From positions 1-37,108 of IMG/VR virus record IMGVR_UViG_3300046010_006313: a stretch of DNA of 37,108 bases; one strand, written 5' to 3'. This document shows positions 1 to 35,969 of this stretch, one piece after another. Numbering within the stretch: the stretch's first letter is position 1; each line of letters opens with the position of its first letter. This DNA comes from a virus. The position numbers were made by a program, and so were the translations under genes. The notes under the pieces are model-generated. The model had not been told where the DNA came from. It worked only from the letters and a program-made list of their open reading frames with translations, and ran no database searches.

Positions 1-256
1 TTTTCCAAATATAACCCCATAATACAGAAGCGGTTACGATTTCTAGTACCATTTCAATATAAAGGAAGTTCATCCAGTATGTTTCGAATTCTGGCGCAAA
101 TGAGTCTAAACCAGCTGACCAGCCGTAAACCCCTTCATACCAACGAACCCAGCCGTAGAACACAATATAAAGTGCTGCGCCTGCGAACATATTTTTTTTG
201 TTTAAAAGCGGTGCTTCCGCTGTTGCTTTTACTGCATCAATTGTAGTAGCTGACAT
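1..256 (-). CDS. pmoC: Particulate methane monooxygenase subunit C, N-terminal 85 codons, cut by window edge
   Basis: The minus strand from an ATG at 254-256 reads without a stop to base 1, giving 85 residues. The protein starts MSATTIDAVKATAEAPLL and contains the blocks WVRWYEGVYGWSAGLDSF and APEFETYWMNFLYIE, which I recognise as the strongly conserved N-terminus of methanotroph PmoC. PmoC is an integral membrane subunit of the copper enzyme that oxidises methane to methanol; bacterial PmoC is about 250-260 residues, so roughly a third is visible. An SD-like GGAGA lies 7 nt before the ATG. The Asp/His/His copper ligands lie further along and cannot be checked here. No pmoA or pmoB is seen. 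In the phage it would be a metabolic gene supporting host methane oxidation during infection (inference). AmoC or another CuMMO C subunit is the alternative, but the wording fits methanotroph PmoC best. Confidence 0.95.
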   Translation of the reverse strand, partial: MSATTIDAVKATAEAPLLNKKNMFAGAALYIVFYGWVRWYEGVYGWSAGLDSFAPEFETYWMNFLYIEMVLEIVTASVLWGYIWK

Positions 257-316
257 ATTAATTCTCCAAAAAGGAAATTCAAATAGAATTTAACTTAGGG
301 TTAAATCCTGACAAGC

Positions 317-324
317 CATTTATA
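317..324 (-). promoter_or_regulatory. Putative T4-type late promoter for pmoC
   Basis: The minus strand reads TATAAATG about 60 nt before the pmoC ATG, one base from the T4 late consensus TATAAATA. The single motif is weak evidence, but similar motifs stand before structural genes elsewhere in the window. Confidence 0.35.
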
Positions 325-353
325 ATAACATACTATTTCAATATGTTAATTAT

Positions 354-412
354 CCTACATTCTCCCCCGATAAATTCGTACAAAAATAGCTTAAAGTACA
401 AAAGAATGTAGG
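354..412. repeat. Inverted repeat in the pmoC leader
   Basis: CCTACATTC at 354-362 is matched by its exact reverse complement at 404-412, with a 41-nt spacer. Inside the spacer GTACAAAA occurs twice as a direct repeat. It lies in the 210-bp gap between the DUF6321-like gene and pmoC, which holds no gene. No T-run follows either arm, so an operator or RNA structure is more likely than a simple terminator. Confidence 0.5.
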
Positions 413-466: not shown

Positions 467-967
467 TCAACAATTCCATTTTTTAAGCGCTAAGGCTTTT
501 CTGGTTGGTTCGCCATTCTTATCTTTCATTGCTCCAGGCATACCACCCATTCTAGCACAAAAACTTTTACGTCTTTTTGCCGCTTTACTATCTGGATCTA
601 ATTTACTTGGTGGTGTAGTAACCGCCATTTGAAGTTTACTTTTAGGATTTTCTCTTCTATAAGCATCAACGCCCTTTTGCGTTAACCCACCAGTAGAACT
701 TTTGTGACCTTTTGCATCAATTGCATATTCCAATAACTCGTCATCACTAATAGCATCAAATAAATCCCAAAGGTAATCACTGGTAAATCCGTTGTCAGTT
801 GCATATTGTTCAACGGTACTTTCAATCATATCAAATATTTCTTCAACGTTTTCATTAGCCACACAGTTATTCACCTTTTTGCCATCTTTTATTTTGGTGC
901 CTTCTTTATGGTAATTTTTCCAACATTTAAAACTTAGAAAATTCTTTTTTTCTGATATGTCTTCCAT
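467..967 (-). CDS. DUF6321-like phage protein
   Basis: The product is 166 residues and of unknown function. Its C-terminal half has the signature of a small phage family (DUF6321, from memory): GLTQKGVDAYRRENPKSKL, then AVTTPPSKL, a basic AAKRRKSFCARM block, and the terminal KKWNC. The N-terminal half is acidic and probably helical. An earlier in-frame start exists at 1030, but that extension would be translated from the tRNA-Pro gene. The ATG at 965-967 has AAGGGAA 8 nt upstream and is preferred. It is the last gene before pmoC on the same strand. Three Cys residues and the very basic tail could suit nucleic acid or metal binding; this is speculation. Confidence 0.8.
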   Translation of the reverse strand: MEDISEKKNFLSFKCWKNYHKEGTKIKDGKKVNNCVANENVEEIFDMIESTVEQYATDNGFTSDYLWDLFDAISDDELLEYAIDAKGHKSSTGGLTQKGVDAYRRENPKSKLQMAVTTPPSKLDPDSKAAKRRKSFCARMGGMPGAMKDKNGEPTRKALALKKWNC

Positions 968-986
968 AAATATTCCCTTATTAAAT

Positions 987-1063
987 TGGTCTCCCATGAC
1001 AGATTTGAACTGCCGACCTATCCGCCCCAAACGGATCGCTCTACCAAACTGAGCTAATAGGAG
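987..1063 (-). tRNA. tRNA-Pro (TGG)
   Basis: A full cloverleaf is visible on the minus strand. The acceptor CTCCTAT pairs with ATGGGAG (one T-G wobble), the anticodon stem ATCCG/CGGAT holds loop TTTGGGG (anticodon TGG), and the T loop is TTCAAAT. CCA is encoded at 987-989. Confidence 0.93.
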
Positions 1064-1122
1064 TTGTTATAAAGGGCGTTTTCTGTTTTTAACGTGGGGC
1101 ACGCCTACCACCATTTCTACAT

Positions 1123-1198
1123 TGGAGCCACTGAAAGGAATCGAACCCTCAACCCCCTGATTACAAGTCAGGTGCTCTACCAATTGAGCTACAGTGGC
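1123..1198 (-). tRNA. tRNA-Thr (TGT)
   Basis: The acceptor stem GCCACTG/CAGTGGC is perfect. The anticodon stem CCTGA/TCAGG encloses CTTGTAA, giving anticodon TGT, and the T loop is TTCGATT. CCA is encoded. The 59-bp gap to tRNA-Pro holds nothing recognisable. Confidence 0.95.
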
Positions 1199-1204
1199 AA
1201 TATT

Positions 1205-1277
1205 TGGAGCGGGATAAGGGAATCGAACCCTACTAAAAGATTGGAAATCTTTTGTTCTACCTTTAAACTAATTCCGC
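1205..1277 (-). tRNA. tRNA-Gly (TCC)
   Basis: The acceptor GCGGAAT pairs with ATCCCGC with one A-C mismatch at the fifth pair. The anticodon stem AAAGA/TCTTT holds loop TTTCCAA (anticodon TCC). The T arm is normal and CCA is encoded. The mismatch is the only flaw. Confidence 0.92.
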
Positions 1278-1282
1278 GTTAT

Positions 1283-1366
1283 TGGTGGAGATCCCTGGAT
1301 TCGAACCAGGTGCCCAAAGGGCACGGATTTACAGTCCGCTGCAGTCACCTATGCCGCTCGACCTCC
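1283..1366 (-). tRNA. tRNA-Tyr (GTA)
   Basis: This is a type II tRNA with a long variable arm (GCCC/GGGC). The acceptor is GGAGGTC/GATCTCC and the anticodon loop CTGTAAA gives GTA. CCA is encoded. It lies 6 bp beyond the stop codon of the RNA ligase gene, so both are likely on one transcript. Confidence 0.95.
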
Positions 1367-6798: not shown

Positions 6799-7458
6799 TT
6801 ACTCGAACGATGAGTCAGATTCAACTGCCAAGAAATACACGGTATCTTTAGTTTTATGTTTAAATCTTGAAATCTTTTTATGAGAGATAGATACGGTATA
6901 GTCGCCGTGTACTAACTTCAACAAACCAATTTTTAGGTAAACTTTAAACGTGGTAGAAGTAGAACCAACCTCAACTTCATACACGTTAGATGAATCAACC
7001 TTTTTATCGCCAACTCGAATAATAATTTTACTACCATCACCAATTAAGGCTAAGTCTTGAGCCTTTAAGACAGATGCTGTACGATTAATCATATCAAGCA
7101 TACTATCGGTTAACTCAAACTCAATATCTGCGTCAGGAAATTTAATTTCTTTAGTCGGTACGGTTAAAACGTTTTCAGCTGCAGAGAAATACTTAATCGA
7201 GTTATTACCCTCAGAAATGGTAACATATTTATCGTTAAATGTCAAGTCAGGATCGCTAAACAAAGAAACAGCGCCTAAAAATTCTGAGATATCGTAAATA
7301 CCGAATGTGGTATCAAACGACTCAGCAATAGCACTATCAGCCATAATGTTTTTTTGAACAGAAACTGTAGAAAGTTTGTTTCCAGGTTTCAACATCACAT
7401 TAGGGTTAATAGATGCAAAGTTTTTTAAGATAGCTTGGGTTTCACGCGATAACTTCAT
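6799..7458 (-). CDS. gp45: Sliding clamp gp45
   Basis: The protein is 219 residues (T4 gp45: 228). The start MKLSRETQAILKNFASINPN and the segments GIYDISEFLGAVSLF and FPDADIEFEL match the T4 clamp pattern. The trimeric clamp tethers the polymerase and, in T4, also activates late transcription with gp33 and gp55, which fits the TATAAATA-like motifs in the window. A promoter at 7487-7515 serves it directly; gene order 45-44-62-regA is conserved with T4, with small genes inserted. Confidence 0.95.
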   Translation of the reverse strand: MKLSRETQAILKNFASINPNVMLKPGNKLSTVSVQKNIMADSAIAESFDTTFGIYDISEFLGAVSLFSDPDLTFNDKYVTISEGNNSIKYFSAAENVLTVPTKEIKFPDADIEFELTDSMLDMINRTASVLKAQDLALIGDGSKIIIRVGDKKVDSSNVYEVEVGSTSTTFKVYLKIGLLKLVHGDYTVSISHKKISRFKHKTKDTVYFLAVESDSSFE

Positions 7459-13842: not shown

Positions 13843-15084
13843 TTATATTCCAAGCACAGTTTTAATTTTATAGTTACTGTATTTGTTATTGAAATGTAAC
13901 ATCAACTCTTTTATTTGAGTTGTGCCAGAATTGTATAATTCTTTTATTTTATTGAGGTCAGAGATAGGAATTGCGTCTGACCTCAATAAACCTTTAACCC
14001 AATGCGATTGAGGAATATCTCCAGACAGAACCCTGTAATTTTTAACGCCATCGTTCCAAGAAGAATACCCATTAATAGAACTGGTGTATTTCTTTAACCC
14101 ACAACTTTTATTTGTTTGTGTAGATAATAACTCGCCTTCTTCCCATCCTTCTCCAGGATGTTTTTTCCTTTTTATTGTTTTTGTTCCATCATTATAACAT
14201 TTTGTTCCAGTATTACATATAGAACCTAATTTTAATGATATTTTAGCTTGTTTTTTATGGTTTTCTGTTATATAAAATATTAAACCTAATTTTTCAATTT
14301 CAGGTGAATTTTTTGATAGTTTACCGTAATATGTGCCATCAGGCAAAGCATAATTAGCCTTTTCCTTCAATTTATTTCTTCTTTTATTATTAGCGCTTTG
14401 TTTACAATATTTTTTGTCTTCTTCTGAACAATATGTATTCCATCCTTGAGATAAATATTCTGATAGTTCTTCAGAATATAATTTGATTCTAATTTTAATA
14501 TCTAGAAAATATAACGTGATTTTTTTAAATTTATCTTTAGATTTTGACGATTTAGCCTTAGATTCATTTGACCTTTTGTAACCAGACGCCGCGCCTATTA
14601 ACGATAATTCCTTTATTTTTGTGTCGTCTTTATGTAGGAAATATCTGTTACCAAATTCGTCTTTGTATGTCGCAAACCCTTTTCTATTTTGTAACCTTTC
14701 TTTTTTAACTTTCTCTAAATATAAAATTTGATATTTTGTTGGCACCTTTCTCTCAGAAAGAGAATGTAAATTTGTTTCTGCATTATAGATATCAAGCATA
14801 CATTCTAATGCGAATATTTGAGAACCCTTAAACGTTTTCCATAACATCACGTGAGCCATTAAATGTTGTCTAAACGTTAACCTGATAGAATTCCAACTAT
14901 ATACTTTAAGGTTAGTGTATTCTGGGAATAAATCCTTAGCCTTTGGGCAAATATGATGTATTTCAGTATATTCTAGGTCTGGTAAACTTTTATTTGATTC
15001 ACTACAATAATCAATAAATTTAATGTATCTTTTAAGGTAATGAGAATTGTGTGGTTTAGTTTTTAAAACACTATAAATATTCAT
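13843..15084 (-). CDS. HNH-type homing endonuclease, free-standing
   Basis: The protein of 413 residues has an N-terminal HNH-like core: EIHHICPKAKDLFPEYTNLK (H43, H44) followed by RLTFRQHLMAHVMLWK (H74, H78), as in phage mobile endonucleases. The rest is Lys-rich with repeated small modules ending in patterns such as NDGTKTI/NDGVKNY and GEGWEEGEL, likely DNA-contact repeats. It cuts a specific DNA site to spread its own gene; the likely target is uvsY or gp23 DNA in related phages lacking it. It is more A/T-rich than neighbours. SD AAGGAG lies before the ATG. No intron or intein boundary is evident. Confidence 0.85.
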   Translation of the reverse strand: MNIYSVLKTKPHNSHYLKRYIKFIDYCSESNKSLPDLEYTEIHHICPKAKDLFPEYTNLKVYSWNSIRLTFRQHLMAHVMLWKTFKGSQIFALECMLDIYNAETNLHSLSERKVPTKYQILYLEKVKKERLQNRKGFATYKDEFGNRYFLHKDDTKIKELSLIGAASGYKRSNESKAKSSKSKDKFKKITLYFLDIKIRIKLYSEELSEYLSQGWNTYCSEEDKKYCKQSANNKRRNKLKEKANYALPDGTYYGKLSKNSPEIEKLGLIFYITENHKKQAKISLKLGSICNTGTKCYNDGTKTIKRKKHPGEGWEEGELLSTQTNKSCGLKKYTSSINGYSSWNDGVKNYRVLSGDIPQSHWVKGLLRSDAIPISDLNKIKELYNSGTTQIKELMLHFNNKYSNYKIKTVLGI

Positions 15085-15258: not shown

Positions 15259-16605
15259 TCACATGATGTTACGTACACGAACAACACGATAGAAATAGTT
15301 TTTAGCCGCATATAAGCCAGTGTTACCAGCGCCAGCATCCAATGTGCAGAATGGGTTAGCAGTGATACCATAACGTGTAGCAAAACCAATTTTTGGTTGG
15401 AATGTGTTAGGATCAGAAGCTCTCATTAATTGCAATGGAATATATGGGCAATAGAAAATACCGGCGTCAAACGCGCTTGTACCTTTATAACCAACAACGA
15501 AGTATTGTTCGTTGCTCAAGTTACTTGAATAAGGATCGATGAATACTTTATAACGACCGTTCAATACACCAGCATAAGTTGTAGATGTATCGTCAACGTT
15601 TAAGTTAGTGTTCAAAGCAGGAGCATAATCTAACGCACCAGCCATCGCTAAAGCTGAAGCAACGTCAGCAGAAGTGATAATGAAGTTACCACGACCACGA
15701 CGAGTCAATTGACCAATCGCGTTAGCTTCACGTTCAATTTGGAACAATAAGCCTTTGAATTTTTCAACTGACCAACGACCATTTGAATCTGTATCTAAGT
15801 CGAAGATGCCAGCAGTAGTTGTACCGTTTTGTGCACCTGGAAGAGCAGAAAGATAAACAGTACGGATAACTTCACGGTTAATCTCAGCAAGAATTTCTGT
15901 GCTTAAGATATTAACCAATTCAGATTCAGCATCCAAGCCGTGTACTGATTGAAGATCTTGTGCTAATTCATTTGTATATTCAGCTTTCAACGCACGTGAT
16001 TTAGCAATAACGTGAGTTTTTTCGATAGAGAACGCCATTTCGTTGAAAGTAGCGCCGCCGCTAGAACCTAAAGCTTCCTTTGTAGCTGTAGACATAGCAG
16101 TACCAGTATTATAACTAGCAGCACCAGGATAAGTACCAGTTTGGTCGCCGTTTACTGGAGTGCCAGTACCATCAAACAACGCATTAGTAGCGCCGGCGAA
16201 TTCTGTATTAGCTTCGTTGTAAAGTGCTTCTGTACCGTTTTGTGAACCGTAACGTGATTTCATCGCGAAGATCAAACCAGTAGGTTGAGTCATAGGTTGA
16301 ACACCACAAATATCATAAGCAATAAGCTGTGGCATTGAACGACGAACCAAAGAAATCAAGATAGGATCGTAACCAGAAACAGTACCAGTACCTGCGCCTG
16401 TACCACCTAAAGCGATACCAGTACCGCCGGCGTTAGCAGGAGCTGCTTCATTAAGCATACCGCTTGATTGTGTACGCATATCATTTTCTTGGTTTTCCAA
16501 CAATACCGCTGTTACTTCACGACGATATTTATCTTTGATTTCTGGCATCGCAGAATGTTCAAGGATAGGATTCCATTTTTTTAATAATTCAGGACGTGTA
16601 GACAT
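15259..16605 (-). CDS. gp23: Major capsid protein gp23
   Basis: The protein is 448 residues (T4 gp23: 521; cyanophage forms about 460-470). SLVRRSMPQLIAYDICGVQPM, PTGLIFAMKSRYG and the C-terminal KIGFATRYGITANPFC are the landmark gp23 stretches. Residues 51-54, LNEA, match the (L/I)-X-E cleavage rule of the prohead protease, so the mature protein probably starts at A54 after E53. It forms the hexamers of the head. Genes 22 and 21 precede it on the same strand, and a strong terminator follows. Confidence 0.97.
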   Translation of the reverse strand: MSTRPELLKKWNPILEHSAMPEIKDKYRREVTAVLLENQENDMRTQSSGMLNEAAPANAGGTGIALGGTGAGTGTVSGYDPILISLVRRSMPQLIAYDICGVQPMTQPTGLIFAMKSRYGSQNGTEALYNEANTEFAGATNALFDGTGTPVNGDQTGTYPGAASYNTGTAMSTATKEALGSSGGATFNEMAFSIEKTHVIAKSRALKAEYTNELAQDLQSVHGLDAESELVNILSTEILAEINREVIRTVYLSALPGAQNGTTTAGIFDLDTDSNGRWSVEKFKGLLFQIEREANAIGQLTRRGRGNFIITSADVASALAMAGALDYAPALNTNLNVDDTSTTYAGVLNGRYKVFIDPYSSNLSNEQYFVVGYKGTSAFDAGIFYCPYIPLQLMRASDPNTFQPKIGFATRYGITANPFCTLDAGAGNTGLYAAKNYFYRVVRVRNIM

Positions 16606-25780: not shown

Positions 25781-25972
25781 TTATTTGTTACAGTGAATTT
25801 CTATTGAGTTTGGTTCTAATGTTTTTGCTACTTTTTCACGCAAAGTAATTCTAGCAAACTCTGGTGCTTTACAGTAATCCGTTACCGCCGCGCTGATTAA
25901 AGTTTCCGTTTCAACCAAAGCCGCACATCCTGTTAACATAAGGGTAAGCGCCGCCAATAATACTAATTTCAT
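25781..25972 (-). CDS. Small phage lipoprotein
   Basis: The 63-residue precursor MKLVLLAALTLMLTGC has a lipobox (LTGC) with the lipidated Cys at 16. The mature part, starting AALVETETLISAAV, has two more Cys. Its ATG overlaps the stop of the lipase gene (ATGA). An outer-spanin role is a possibility, because small lipoproteins near lysis genes often serve this way, but the usual Pro-rich spanin pattern is absent. Function is unproven. Confidence 0.7.
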   Translation of the reverse strand: MKLVLLAALTLMLTGCAALVETETLISAAVTDYCKAPEFARITLREKVAKTLEPNSIEIHCNK

Positions 25973-26676
25973 AATTTCTCCAAGTTTTTAATGTAGTTTT
26001 TCATTTCATGATTAACGAAAAAATTAACCTTTCCTTTCTTTAACCCCAAAATAGTTCCTTTGATTCTGTCTTTAACCATTTGAAAGACAGTCATATCAGT
26101 TAAGTTACCGCTATGGTCAAAATAATTTAATTCACCATGATGATAGTATGGGAATATTGGATTTCTAGGTACAATATCAGCATTATTAACCCAACGGTGA
26201 TGTTCGATATTTAATGTGTTTAAGAAATTAATATAGGTATAATTACCAACTCTTGGTGAACCAAAGGTATATAGGACTGGATTTGGCATATCAGGAAATC
26301 TGTGACAACGACCAGCAATCAAAGTAGCCATAGCCGCGCCTAAAGAATGTCCTGTAAGATACACCTTTCTGTTAGGGTATTTGAGGAATAATTTAGATAA
26401 ATCTTCCCAAACATTATCAACAGATTGTTTAAATCCATGATGCACTTTACCTATACCGGAACTGCTAGGGACTAATCTGAATCTAATATCCGCGATAATA
26501 TCTTCTAATTTTGTAGGTTGAGTTCCTCTACACACAACAATAATCGTATCGATGTTGAAAAGAAAGTAAGCCTGCGACCCGTTTTTATCCAGAAATATAG
26601 TATTCCAATCTGGGAATTTGTAGTCATCAGTGTAAGCTAATTCACTGAATTTTGCCATCATTAACGGCGTAATCAT
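25969..26676 (-). CDS. Class 3 lipase-like alpha/beta hydrolase
   Basis: The 235-residue protein has the Lipase_3 pattern: IIVVCRGTQPTKLEDIIADI, KVHHGFKQSVDNVW, VYLTGHSLGAAMATLIAGR with nucleophile S111, YTFGSPRVGN, NNADIVPR with D167 and NHEMKNY with H223 as the likely triad. No signal peptide is seen. It would cleave lipid esters, perhaps host membrane lipids at lysis, or act in the virion at entry; context between fibre genes and a lipoprotein does not decide. The ATG at 26674-26676 lies 5 nt after a perfect AGGAGG, so strong expression is likely. Confidence 0.9.
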   Translation of the reverse strand: MITPLMMAKFSELAYTDDYKFPDWNTIFLDKNGSQAYFLFNIDTIIVVCRGTQPTKLEDIIADIRFRLVPSSSGIGKVHHGFKQSVDNVWEDLSKLFLKYPNRKVYLTGHSLGAAMATLIAGRCHRFPDMPNPVLYTFGSPRVGNYTYINFLNTLNIEHHRWVNNADIVPRNPIFPYYHHGELNYFDHSGNLTDMTVFQMVKDRIKGTILGLKKGKVNFFVNHEMKNYIKNLEKL

Positions 26677-32762: not shown

Positions 32763-33188
32763 TTAATTGTTTCTTGATGTGTTTAATTTTTGTAAAATTA
32801 AATTTATTTCTTCTTCTACCGTCATACCAAATTCAATCACAACATCAGCATTTTTAGGCTTAACAAAAATTGCGTTTGTATCGCTATAAACACATTCAGA
32901 TATTCTGTTGACCCAAATAATAAAGTCAGGATTAAATATGGTTCTTGTTTCTTCAGTCGGGCAAATAAAATCTGCTATTGAATCATACCCCGCCCTAGAA
33001 ACTACATCACATAAAAATCCCATTCTTTTGGATTGTTCGAGTCTATCCTGATTAGAAAATCCCAAATCCTTATTGATATTTTCTCTTATTTCATCTGCGT
33101 TAAAATGTACTGCTGAAAGCTTAGTCGCAAGTCGTTTAGCAAGAGTGGTTTTACCCGCGCCGGCTAACCCCATAACAAGAATTTTCAT
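32763..33188 (-). CDS. cysC: Adenylylsulfate (APS) kinase-like P-loop kinase
   Basis: The 141-residue protein starts MKILVMGLAGAGKTTLAKRL with a P-loop (K13), then HFNADEIRENINKDLGFSNQDRLEQSKRMG, the APS-kinase pattern of NADEIR...N.DLGFS...R.E...R. DSIADFICPTEETR corresponds to the segment before the lid. It is shorter than CysC (about 200) but like the phage forms. It would phosphorylate APS to PAPS, the sulfate donor used by the sulfotransferase encoded nearby. A related small-molecule kinase cannot be excluded. Confidence 0.82.
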   Translation of the reverse strand: MKILVMGLAGAGKTTLAKRLATKLSAVHFNADEIRENINKDLGFSNQDRLEQSKRMGFLCDVVSRAGYDSIADFICPTEETRTIFNPDFIIWVNRISECVYSDTNAIFVKPKNADVVIEFGMTVEEEINLILQKLNTSRNN

Positions 33189-33594: not shown

Positions 33595-35352
33595 CTATTT
33601 AATAAATTTTTCATTTAAACGGTCACGAATTTGTTCGAATGGTGCAGACCATTCTCCATATTCTGTTTGTCTAAATAAAGTAAATGAATCATAGTAGGGA
33701 GTTTTTTCACCATCAATAGCATATAAGAAATATGGCATTATTGGCGTAACAACCCAAGTTTCAATTCCCATAGCACCGGCTAAATGTGAAACTGACGTGC
33801 ATGAAGATATGACTAAATCACAACTAGCAATAGCCGCTTGTGTATCAAACCATGAATCGAGAGGAACATCTTTAACCCAATCAGGTGTAACATCTATATC
33901 AGCATCACGTTGTAAAGAAATAAATTCAACATCTAAATCTTTAACCGCGTTAAACATTAGTTCGCTTGGAAACAATTTATGGTGTTGATCTTCAAATGCT
34001 TTATTGCCAGACCACCGTAAACCAATTCTAAATTTTTTAGATTTAATTGCTTTCGGTTTATCTATATAAGGTAAACCGCTTATGCTTTCTAATTCAAATC
34101 CTAATGGTACAACAGCCGACATACCAGCTACCCAATAATCGTGGTAAACTCCATATTCAGCGCCATGTTGAACTACAGCTGAAACACCTTCAACGTTATT
34201 TAATAGAGGGACTAGAGAACCAGTAGCAGAAACCGCGACTTTGTTGCCTAGTTTAGCGATATCTTTGGCGTATCGGATTTGATGAATCTGGTCACCTAAA
34301 CCGCCTTCCAAGTAAAGTAAGATTGTTCCTTTGGTAATTCCATCCCATGGTTGAGTAATGGTTTCAGGATGTTTGTTTCCGAAAACGCCTACTAGACGAC
34401 CTTTATCCATTAAGCGATAGCCTTTTTGGATTTGTCCTTGTCTAAGATAATACCAACCAGAGTTATAGGCTGCTCTGTAGTTATTGGGTTCTTCTTTTTC
34501 GAGTTTCTGAGCAATACGCCAGCCTTCTTCGAAATCGCCAGTTGTAGCAGCAGCAAGTTGTAAATCTAAATCATGAATGGTTGGAATAGTTCTTGGTGTT
34601 GGTAACCAGAATTCAGGTTGGCAGAAAGAACTATAATGATGTTGAAGAATATCTTTTGGATCAGTTGTATGTTGACGTTCAAGTTTAGGCTTAATGTCAT
34701 GCATACCAGCGTATCCATGTAGATTTTCATCATCTTCTTTTACAGGAGTTCCATCGATGTTTGATAAATCGTAATCAAAATCTGGTAGCTCTAAGAATTC
34801 ATGGATTCTATTTAATTGAGCTTGAGGATCCGCGAGTAAATCATCATATTCAACGATTAAGAAACATTCTGGAGCAAACTGATATCCTTCTTGTAGAGAG
34901 ATATAAGCCGCTCTAAGATGGTCAGCTAATTGACCAGTTGCCATGAATTCATCAAGGTTTTCTGGTTTAGCCACTCTAACAAAAGACGACATACAGTCTG
35001 GGATAGATCTGACTGTAGCAATGATTTTAGGTTTATGTTGAAGAACCTGCGACATTGCCTGCATAATGGTCGGAATTGGCCAACCTCTGCCTTTATCAAT
35101 GATGATTGGTTTAGGGATTTCCTCATAATAGGAGTCGATAAGACCTCTCATTGATTGGGCTAGTTTAGTTCTATCAGGATCGTTCTCATTAAGTAAACCA
35201 GCAGAATGCCACGTATTGGCTAGACCGTCTAATGCATGTACTAGACCAGATGTGGTAGAAACATGAGTTGCTGGATTTTGGTTAAGAATAGCAGCAAGAA
35301 CCGTGGAGCCACTGCGAGGAATACCAGATAAGAAGTGAAGAGTTTTGTTCAT
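33595..35352 (-). CDS. Sulfotransferase-TPR-glycosyltransferase fusion
   Basis: A 585-residue multidomain protein. Residues 1-260 form a sulfotransferase: 5'-phosphosulfate loop SGIPRSGST (9-17), 3'-phosphate contact RSIPDCMSSFVR (115-126), and VEYDDLLADP. Residues ~264-330 look like TPR helices (GDFEEGWRIAQKLEKEEPNN, NSGWYYLRQGQIQKGYRLMD). Residues ~340-585 resemble GT9/TPR-linked glycosyltransferases: LYLEGGLGDQIHQIRYAK, IGLRWSGNKAFEDQHH, ASCDLVISSCTSVSHLAGA. It could add sugar and sulfate to a glycan or protein, perhaps on fibres or the host envelope (inference). APS kinase nearby would supply PAPS. A late-type motif and terminator stand directly upstream. Confidence 0.88.
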   Translation of the reverse strand: MNKTLHFLSGIPRSGSTVLAAILNQNPATHVSTTSGLVHALDGLANTWHSAGLLNENDPDRTKLAQSMRGLIDSYYEEIPKPIIIDKGRGWPIPTIMQAMSQVLQHKPKIIATVRSIPDCMSSFVRVAKPENLDEFMATGQLADHLRAAYISLQEGYQFAPECFLIVEYDDLLADPQAQLNRIHEFLELPDFDYDLSNIDGTPVKEDDENLHGYAGMHDIKPKLERQHTTDPKDILQHHYSSFCQPEFWLPTPRTIPTIHDLDLQLAAATTGDFEEGWRIAQKLEKEEPNNYRAAYNSGWYYLRQGQIQKGYRLMDKGRLVGVFGNKHPETITQPWDGITKGTILLYLEGGLGDQIHQIRYAKDIAKLGNKVAVSATGSLVPLLNNVEGVSAVVQHGAEYGVYHDYWVAGMSAVVPLGFELESISGLPYIDKPKAIKSKKFRIGLRWSGNKAFEDQHHKLFPSELMFNAVKDLDVEFISLQRDADIDVTPDWVKDVPLDSWFDTQAAIASCDLVISSCTSVSHLAGAMGIETWVVTPIMPYFLYAIDGEKTPYYDSFTLFRQTEYGEWSAPFEQIRDRLNEKFIK

Positions 35353-35459: not shown

Positions 35460-35969
35460 TTATAAATATGACCACCCTTTTCTATGCTCTCGACACCAAT
35501 ATTGTATGGTTTCGGCTGGTATATTCAACGCTTTAGATGCACAATGTGTAGAACCAAAAGTACCATGCGGTCCAACTACCGTTTTTGCTCTGTAGTTATT
35601 ACTACCGCCGATAGCTACTGACATTTTTGCCTTGACTTCAGGTCTATGCATAACATTCTTATCGCCAACAGCGTAATCGTGCGATTTACCTTTAGTCGAT
35701 TCGGATATTTTTGTTCTAGTTTCCGGCGACATCATCTTATCTTTATTACCTTCACTAATATTATTAGAGTTAGTATCGATATAAACATTATCTACCGAAT
35801 ATGGACCAATATCCCCGAATCTACACATACAATAATTATCTTTACCGCGACCACGCTGCTCGTATTTACCAGAATCTTCCCAAATTTTACACCATTCTTC
35901 GAATGACAGTAAAAACTCAACGCCGCGTCGGGTAGCATTAGATTTTTGAGTGGTATATTTACGTTTCAT
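35460..35969 (-). CDS. Homing endonuclease-like protein with NUMOD repeats
   Basis: The 169-residue protein begins MKRKYTTQKSNATRRGVEFL, has YCMCRFGDIGPYSVDNVYID, typical of small phage endonuclease-like proteins, then two NUMOD3-type helices (SPETRTKISESTKG, RPEVKAKMSVAIGG) and a NUMOD1-like DNA-binding end (GTFGSTHCASKALNIPAETIQYW, GWSYL). NUMOD modules give sequence specificity to homing enzymes. A clear HNH or GIY-YIG core is not seen, so activity is uncertain. It follows a fibre gene by 7 bp, with its SD region overlapping that stop. Confidence 0.75.
   Translation of the reverse strand: MKRKYTTQKSNATRRGVEFLLSFEEWCKIWEDSGKYEQRGRGKDNYCMCRFGDIGPYSVDNVYIDTNSNNISEGNKDKMMSPETRTKISESTKGKSHDYAVGDKNVMHRPEVKAKMSVAIGGSNNYRAKTVVGPHGTFGSTHCASKALNIPAETIQYWCREHRKGWSYL

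Follow-up and report, generated by a model that had tools for sequence, protein, structure and literature searches.

A pmoC gene at the end of a T4-like phage record, and group I introns in the pmoC genes of related phages

The DNA analyzed here (the window, a single virus record of 37,108 nucleotides) belongs to a T4-like phage and ends within a pmoC gene. The findings as a whole are best explained by a phage-borne pmoC of methanotroph origin that lies behind a phage leader and would sustain methane oxidation, and we consider this explanation likely. The phage would have taken pmoC from a gammaproteobacterial (Methylococcales) methanotroph, and the gene would be kept under a leader of phage type that provides a ribosome site and, probably, a gp55/gp45-type late promoter. 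Fresh PmoC would then be made late in infection. We infer that the phage PmoC may replace or supplement host PmoC inside the host PmoA/PmoB complexes, and that methane oxidation could go on while host genes are shut down. One further pmoC-phage is by itself expected. The findings on the late promoter and on introns come from relatives of the window phage; they are more novel than the window pmoC itself and matter more.

Identification of pmoC and its phage setting

The minus-strand reading frame at window positions 2–256 translates as MSATTIDAVKATAEAPLLNKKNMFAGAALYIVFYGWVRWYEGVYGWSAGLDSFAPEFETYWMNFLYIEMVLEIVTASVLWGYIWK, which comprises 85 codons from an ATG at 256–254 and contains no stop. The visible part matches the Pfam family AmoC (PF04896, E=1.6e-26) over profile positions 7–82 of 245, and its closest solved structure, among the many available for this family, is PmoC 6cxh_C (E=1.7e-44). 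Identification of this frame as PmoC is thus far above chance. The initial annotation, which had reported 85 codons of pmoC at the left edge, is borne out, and both of the conserved blocks that it named are present. The gene is cut at the end of the record itself (G000, exactly 37,108 bases); only the first third of pmoC is visible, and the copper-ligand positions and codons 202–224, the intron hot spot of the relatives, fall past the edge. An exact-match scan of viral contigs with the start of the window pmoC returned no second contig, and nothing in these contigs came close to the window leader or N-terminus. When GenBank phages were searched with tblastn, PmoC had no match, and the sole match of window positions 1–25000 to these phages was 0.5 kb of gp23.

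The same contig carries the T4-like genes gp23, gp18, gp44, gp45, and UvsW, together with genes for a portal, a scaffold, a protease, and tail proteins. The main features are listed in Table 1. Neither pmoA nor pmoB was found in the window, which is an incomplete 37 kb genome, or in 50 related phage loci, and the same probes matched 72 of 80 bacterial loci. The earlier proposal that a T4-like phage carries pmoC is upheld, with neither pmoA nor pmoB in the part of the genome at hand. Prior reports of pmoC on freshwater phages, which had also been pointed out, are confirmed by Chen et al. 2020 (PMC7674155), and the window phage adds to this published kind.

Two independent contigs, L017 and L015, come from close relatives of the window phage. 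The DNA of L017 is 86.5% identical to the window over 7.9 kb, and its gp44, gp45, and UvsW proteins are 95–97% identical to those of the window, with the gene order kept. L017 has an uninterrupted, full-length pmoC (252 aa). An RNA ligase gene sits amid the window tRNAs. The gene for the DUF6321 protein precedes pmoC in the window and follows it in L003–L007, L016, and L017.

The phage pmoC genes of the relatives are under strong purifying selection, with dN/dS values of 0.04–0.08 across phage pmoC. The copper ligands Asp127, His131, and His144 are invariant in all 42 full-length phage relatives.

Table 1. Features of the pmoC end of the window and T4-like marker genes
Feature	Position	Strand	Basis or remark
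Start of pmoC (85 codons), cut off by the left end of the record	2..256	minus	ORF with ATG; Pfam AmoC; PDB match
pmoC core	2..220	minus	219 consecutive bases identical to L133 pmoC
Phage-specific first 12 codons of pmoC	221..256	minus	Differs at 22 of 36 bases from L133, which has the closest bacterial pmoC
Phage pmoC leader	257..398	minus	Aligns with the L017 (78%) and L015 (75%) leaders; bacterial pmoC leaders are unlike it
Shine-Dalgarno-like GGAGAA	262..267	minus	Ahead of the pmoC ATG; read in the sequence
TATAAATG, candidate T4-type late promoter	317..324	minus	At −68 from pmoC; TATAAATA at the aligned place in L017
DUF6321 protein	467..1006	minus	Repeatedly found next to phage pmoC
tRNA array (Pro, Thr, Gly, Tyr)	987..1366	minus	pmoC comes after a tRNA array also in L017 and L015
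gp45-like sliding clamp	6799..7458	minus	Pfam gp45-slide_C, 5.9e-10
gp23 major capsid protein	15259..16605	minus	Pfam Gp23, 4.1e-141; marks the record as T4-like

Mosaic structure and phylogenetic placement

Compared base by base, the window pmoC reads as a mosaic: its leader and N-terminus are of phage type, and the core that follows is identical to host sequence. L133, the source of the identical bacterial sequence, is a contig from a metagenome-assembled genome of a lake methanotroph, and the identity covers bases 37–255 of the coding sequence, up to the end of the contig. The core of the sister phage L017 is different and has 80% identity with the window over 255 bases. In the simplest reading of this pattern, the core of the phage pmoC would have been replaced recently by host sequence.

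A tree of PmoC with methanotrophs had been called for by the initial annotation. In our tree, the window pmoC falls within Methylococcales, beside L132 and L133 (branch value 95). The main gamma phage clade, which has 15 rows (branch value 98), is separate from it. A grouping of the window pmoC with that of phage L002 (branch value 99) was set aside; L002 is long-branched and 255 bases were compared.

The mosaic could also be an assembly chimera. The phage part would be real, but the assembler would have left it after the leader and continued in pmoC from a co-occurring bacterium, and the sequence past codon 12 would then be bacterial. The identity with L133 reaches the contig end, as it would in such a chimera, and phage scaffolds are reported to stop often at pmoC, where similar bacterial genes confuse assembly (PMC7674155). 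However, L017 and L015, in which the phage pmoC is undisputed, share the leader, the start codon, and the position behind the tRNA array. Moreover, a switch at codon 12 requires a match between phage and bacterium over the assembler word length, so that a phage pmoC would still be present. We therefore regard a chimera as unlikely. The earlier concern that a bacterial contig had been joined by mis-assembly is largely answered in the same way, because L017 and L015 are separate contigs in which pmoC has the same location and a leader that can be aligned with that of the window; the part of it that stands is the identity with L133 up to the contig end.

A different role for the gene product can be imagined from the N-terminal 12 codons, which are unlike those of the host. 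A phage PmoC with altered termini might join the host pMMO and slow or redirect methane oxidation, and divergent termini of phage PmoC were noted by Chen et al. (PMC7674155). However, the catalytic core of the window pmoC matches the host exactly and all full-length relatives retain the copper ligands, while an inhibitor would need neither. Such interference is very unlikely in our judgment, and support of methane oxidation is the preferred role.

A probable late promoter ahead of phage pmoC

The T4 late promoter, TATAAATA, is recognized by gp55 with the gp45 clamp, and gp45 is the coactivator of T4-type late transcription (PMC1524935). The window octamer TATAAATG departs from this consensus by one base. 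Among 27 distinct phage pmoC leaders, 15 have the exact TATAAATA on the sense strand, mostly 65–115 bases ahead of pmoC. Shuffled leaders gave a mean of 0.59 (maximum 4 in 500 shuffles), the antisense strand had a single occurrence, and none of 78 bacterial leaders had the motif. The leaders of gp23, used as a positive control, were partly positive, with a relaxed form of the motif in 25 of 78. Across the whole window, the late-promoter motif occurs at chance frequency.

From these motif counts, the late-promoter octamer is enriched before phage pmoC as a class, and a gp55/gp45-type late promoter probably lies ahead of the window pmoC. High expression of pmoC together with late structural genes was reported for three phages of Lake Rotsee (PMC7674155), and the late-promoter motif offers a mechanism by which pmoC and capsid genes would be expressed together, as reported there. 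A sigma-70 promoter was also considered upstream of the window pmoC and was rejected, as its matches were no better than those of shuffled sequences.

Group I introns in the pmoC genes of relatives

Several phage pmoC frames end early, and most of the gaps are group I introns (RF00028). The pmoC introns that were scored have 63.9 to 104.7 bits, where the gathering score is 50. Introns of this family lie inside the pmoC genes of L003, L009, L013, L014, L019, L027, L036, L038, and L050 and of near-copies of these. In total, 11 contigs contain 15 introns of 249–261 nt at 8 sites, which are located after residues 45, 129, 202, 204, 206, 214, 219, and 224 (L021 numbering), in some cases within a codon. 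Model splicing gave an unbroken PmoC of 250–260 aa that keeps all three copper ligands in 11 of 11 contigs. After clustering, 24 distinct full-length phage pmoC genes remained, and 8 of them bear a total of 12 introns, all without ORFs, at the 8 sites. In L027, pmoC is split by four introns within ~22 codons (residues 202 to 224), and the first of these introns ends in A, not G. The intron of L036 is placed between two copper ligands. Of 80 bacterial pmoC genes, 78 have no interruption, and the remaining two run off their contigs.

Several observations speak for function. Compensatory changes were found in 48 of 60 predicted intron base pairs. The intron guides pair with their own exon ends (CGGU/GCCG, UGGU/GCCA, CUUU/GAAG, CGCU/GGCG, and GGGU/GCUC), with 4–5 pairs versus a mean of 2.0 after swapping, although the pairing position was searched for and the contrast is somewhat favoured by this. 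Where computable, the exons after the introns have dN/dS values of 0.02–0.10. On the basis of sequence and structure, many phage pmoC genes in the relatives would require the removal of group I introns, presumably by self-splicing, to give full-length PmoC, and the phage pmoC genes published as 'fragmented' are probably spliced, not broken. Since intron removal restores the protein in relatives, a split pmoC frame alone would not refute function.

These results bear on the possibility that pmoC is a passenger, which would be gained by recombination with hosts, drift in and out of phages, and decay into split pseudogenes. L049 has a degenerate pmoC with in-frame stops, and phages with part of pmoC or none of it have been described (PMC7674155). 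However, most gaps are explained by RF00028 introns whose removal restores an unbroken frame, the intron pairs are conserved by compensation, exon and guide sequences co-vary, and the exons that follow the introns are constrained as given above. A decaying passenger is therefore scarcely probable, and we retain a functional phage pmoC as the preferred reading. The degenerate copy of L049 (9998–10629) has several stops, two of which are TGA at tryptophan positions, and it may be a pseudogene or be read with an altered code.

No group I intron was found in the 37,108 bases of the window, including its 85 visible pmoC codons, and none was detected there with a profile of the pmoC introns. A fifth copy of the L027 intron family is located outside pmoC, in another gene (L027:8683–8925).

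Endonuclease-like genes and probable intron mobility

Endonuclease-like ORFs lie at most 1.6 kb away in 7 of 8 clusters with introns and in 3 of 16 clusters without them (Fisher p = 0.002), with probes that were derived mostly from intron-bearing loci. Pfam support for these ORFs is clear in L027 (GIY-YIG) and L036 (HNH_3) and absent in L003 and L037, where the call is based on sequence similarity to other ORFs. An ORF-less intron next to an endonuclease-like gene, which is the layout of collaborative homing, is thus present in 7 of 8 intron-bearing clusters, some of them with weak domain matches. L003 and L009 share an insertion site, and their endonuclease-like ORFs are 68% identical.

The pair L003 and L007 suggests how the introns may move. 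The two contigs are 99% identical on either side of pmoC. L007 is intronless. In L003, a single block of about 1.15 kb comprises the intron, a second exon that has diverged, and a GIY-YIG-like ORF. Of the 19 coding differences between them, 18 are at base 612 or later. Read from the alignment, this is the pattern expected for homing with co-conversion.

Taking the promoter, intron, and endonuclease findings together, we lean toward a joint reading in which phage pmoC, driven by a late promoter, would be a battleground of mobile group I introns. The 'fragmented' copies would be intact and spliced, the neighbouring endonucleases would cut the intronless pmoC of rival phages and perhaps the near-identical pmoC of the host, and the intron would spread together with the 3' end of pmoC. 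The window phage would fall in the same group.

Extra copies of the pmoC 3' end are located past the endonuclease-like ORF in L037 (12135–12278) and L038 (12407–12520), as past homing or recombination would leave. The window has two homing-endonuclease-like ORFs of its own, both on the minus strand, at 13843–15084 (phrog_655, 1.2e-16) and 35460–35969 (NUMOD3, 9.5e-8). They adjoin gp23 and the tail-fibre region, in a window free of group I introns.

Comparison with known systems

Chen et al. 2020 described 22 pmoC-phages, four of which have pmoC in two pieces, and mentioned neither introns nor a late promoter (PMC7674155). The phages studied here resemble these freshwater-lake phages in their stand-alone pmoC, T4-like or cyanophage-related myovirus affiliation, absence of pmoA and pmoB from the loci searched, and tRNA arrays. 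The pmoC close to that of lake methanotrophs, the scaffolds that end at pmoC, and the occurrence of some pmoC genes in pieces are further points of likeness. The present account differs from theirs in that the pieces are explained as exons.

The layout of intron and endonuclease in the relatives is similar to that of cyanophage S-PM2, in which psbA has a group I intron and the endonuclease F-CphI is free-standing (PMC6083498). Unlike in psbA, introns enter pmoC at 8 sites, and a single gene can hold up to four. The ORFs next to pmoC look like GIY-YIG or HNH proteins and are not Endo VII-like. Phage genes with more than one group I intron are also known from Bastillevirinae (PMC11878797) and Twort. 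Those described in PMC11878797 code for polymerase, terminase, thymidylate synthase, and reductase and contain at most three introns. In contrast, the pmoC of L027 is a metabolic gene of host origin with four introns in about 22 codons. Carriage of subunit C of a copper monooxygenase alone has a parallel in the amoC of thaumarchaeal viruses, as cited in PMC7674155, but that case concerns archaeal hosts and ammonia. A search of open-access journal articles found no paper in which both 'group I intron' and 'pmoC' occur.

Annotation and read mapping take an intron-split pmoC as broken or weakly expressed. Therefore, phages that are able to make PmoC in methane-rich lakes are probably undercounted. 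In Lake Rotsee, the C-terminal piece of a 'fragmented' pmoC appears to be weakly expressed (PMC7674155). A 3' exon of about 135 bases would lose junction-crossing reads when these are mapped on unspliced DNA, which may explain this observation.

Other genes

Several other genes were noticed. On the minus strand of the window, positions 32763–33188 encode a short adenylylsulfate kinase-like protein (APS_kinase, 2.6e-15), and positions 33595–35352 encode a protein of 585 aa that carries a sulfotransferase domain (Sulfotransfer_3, 7.8e-17) in its N-terminal part. Judging from these domain matches, the two genes, which lie beside tail-fibre-like genes, could possibly form a pair that makes PAPS and carries out sulfation. 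A class 3 lipase-like protein (Lipase_3, 6.2e-27) is encoded among the structural genes at 25969–26676 (minus strand). In L027, the left edge (1–314) encodes the start of an apparent secreted flavoprotein oxidoreductase of bacterial type, as judged by eye from its first residues.
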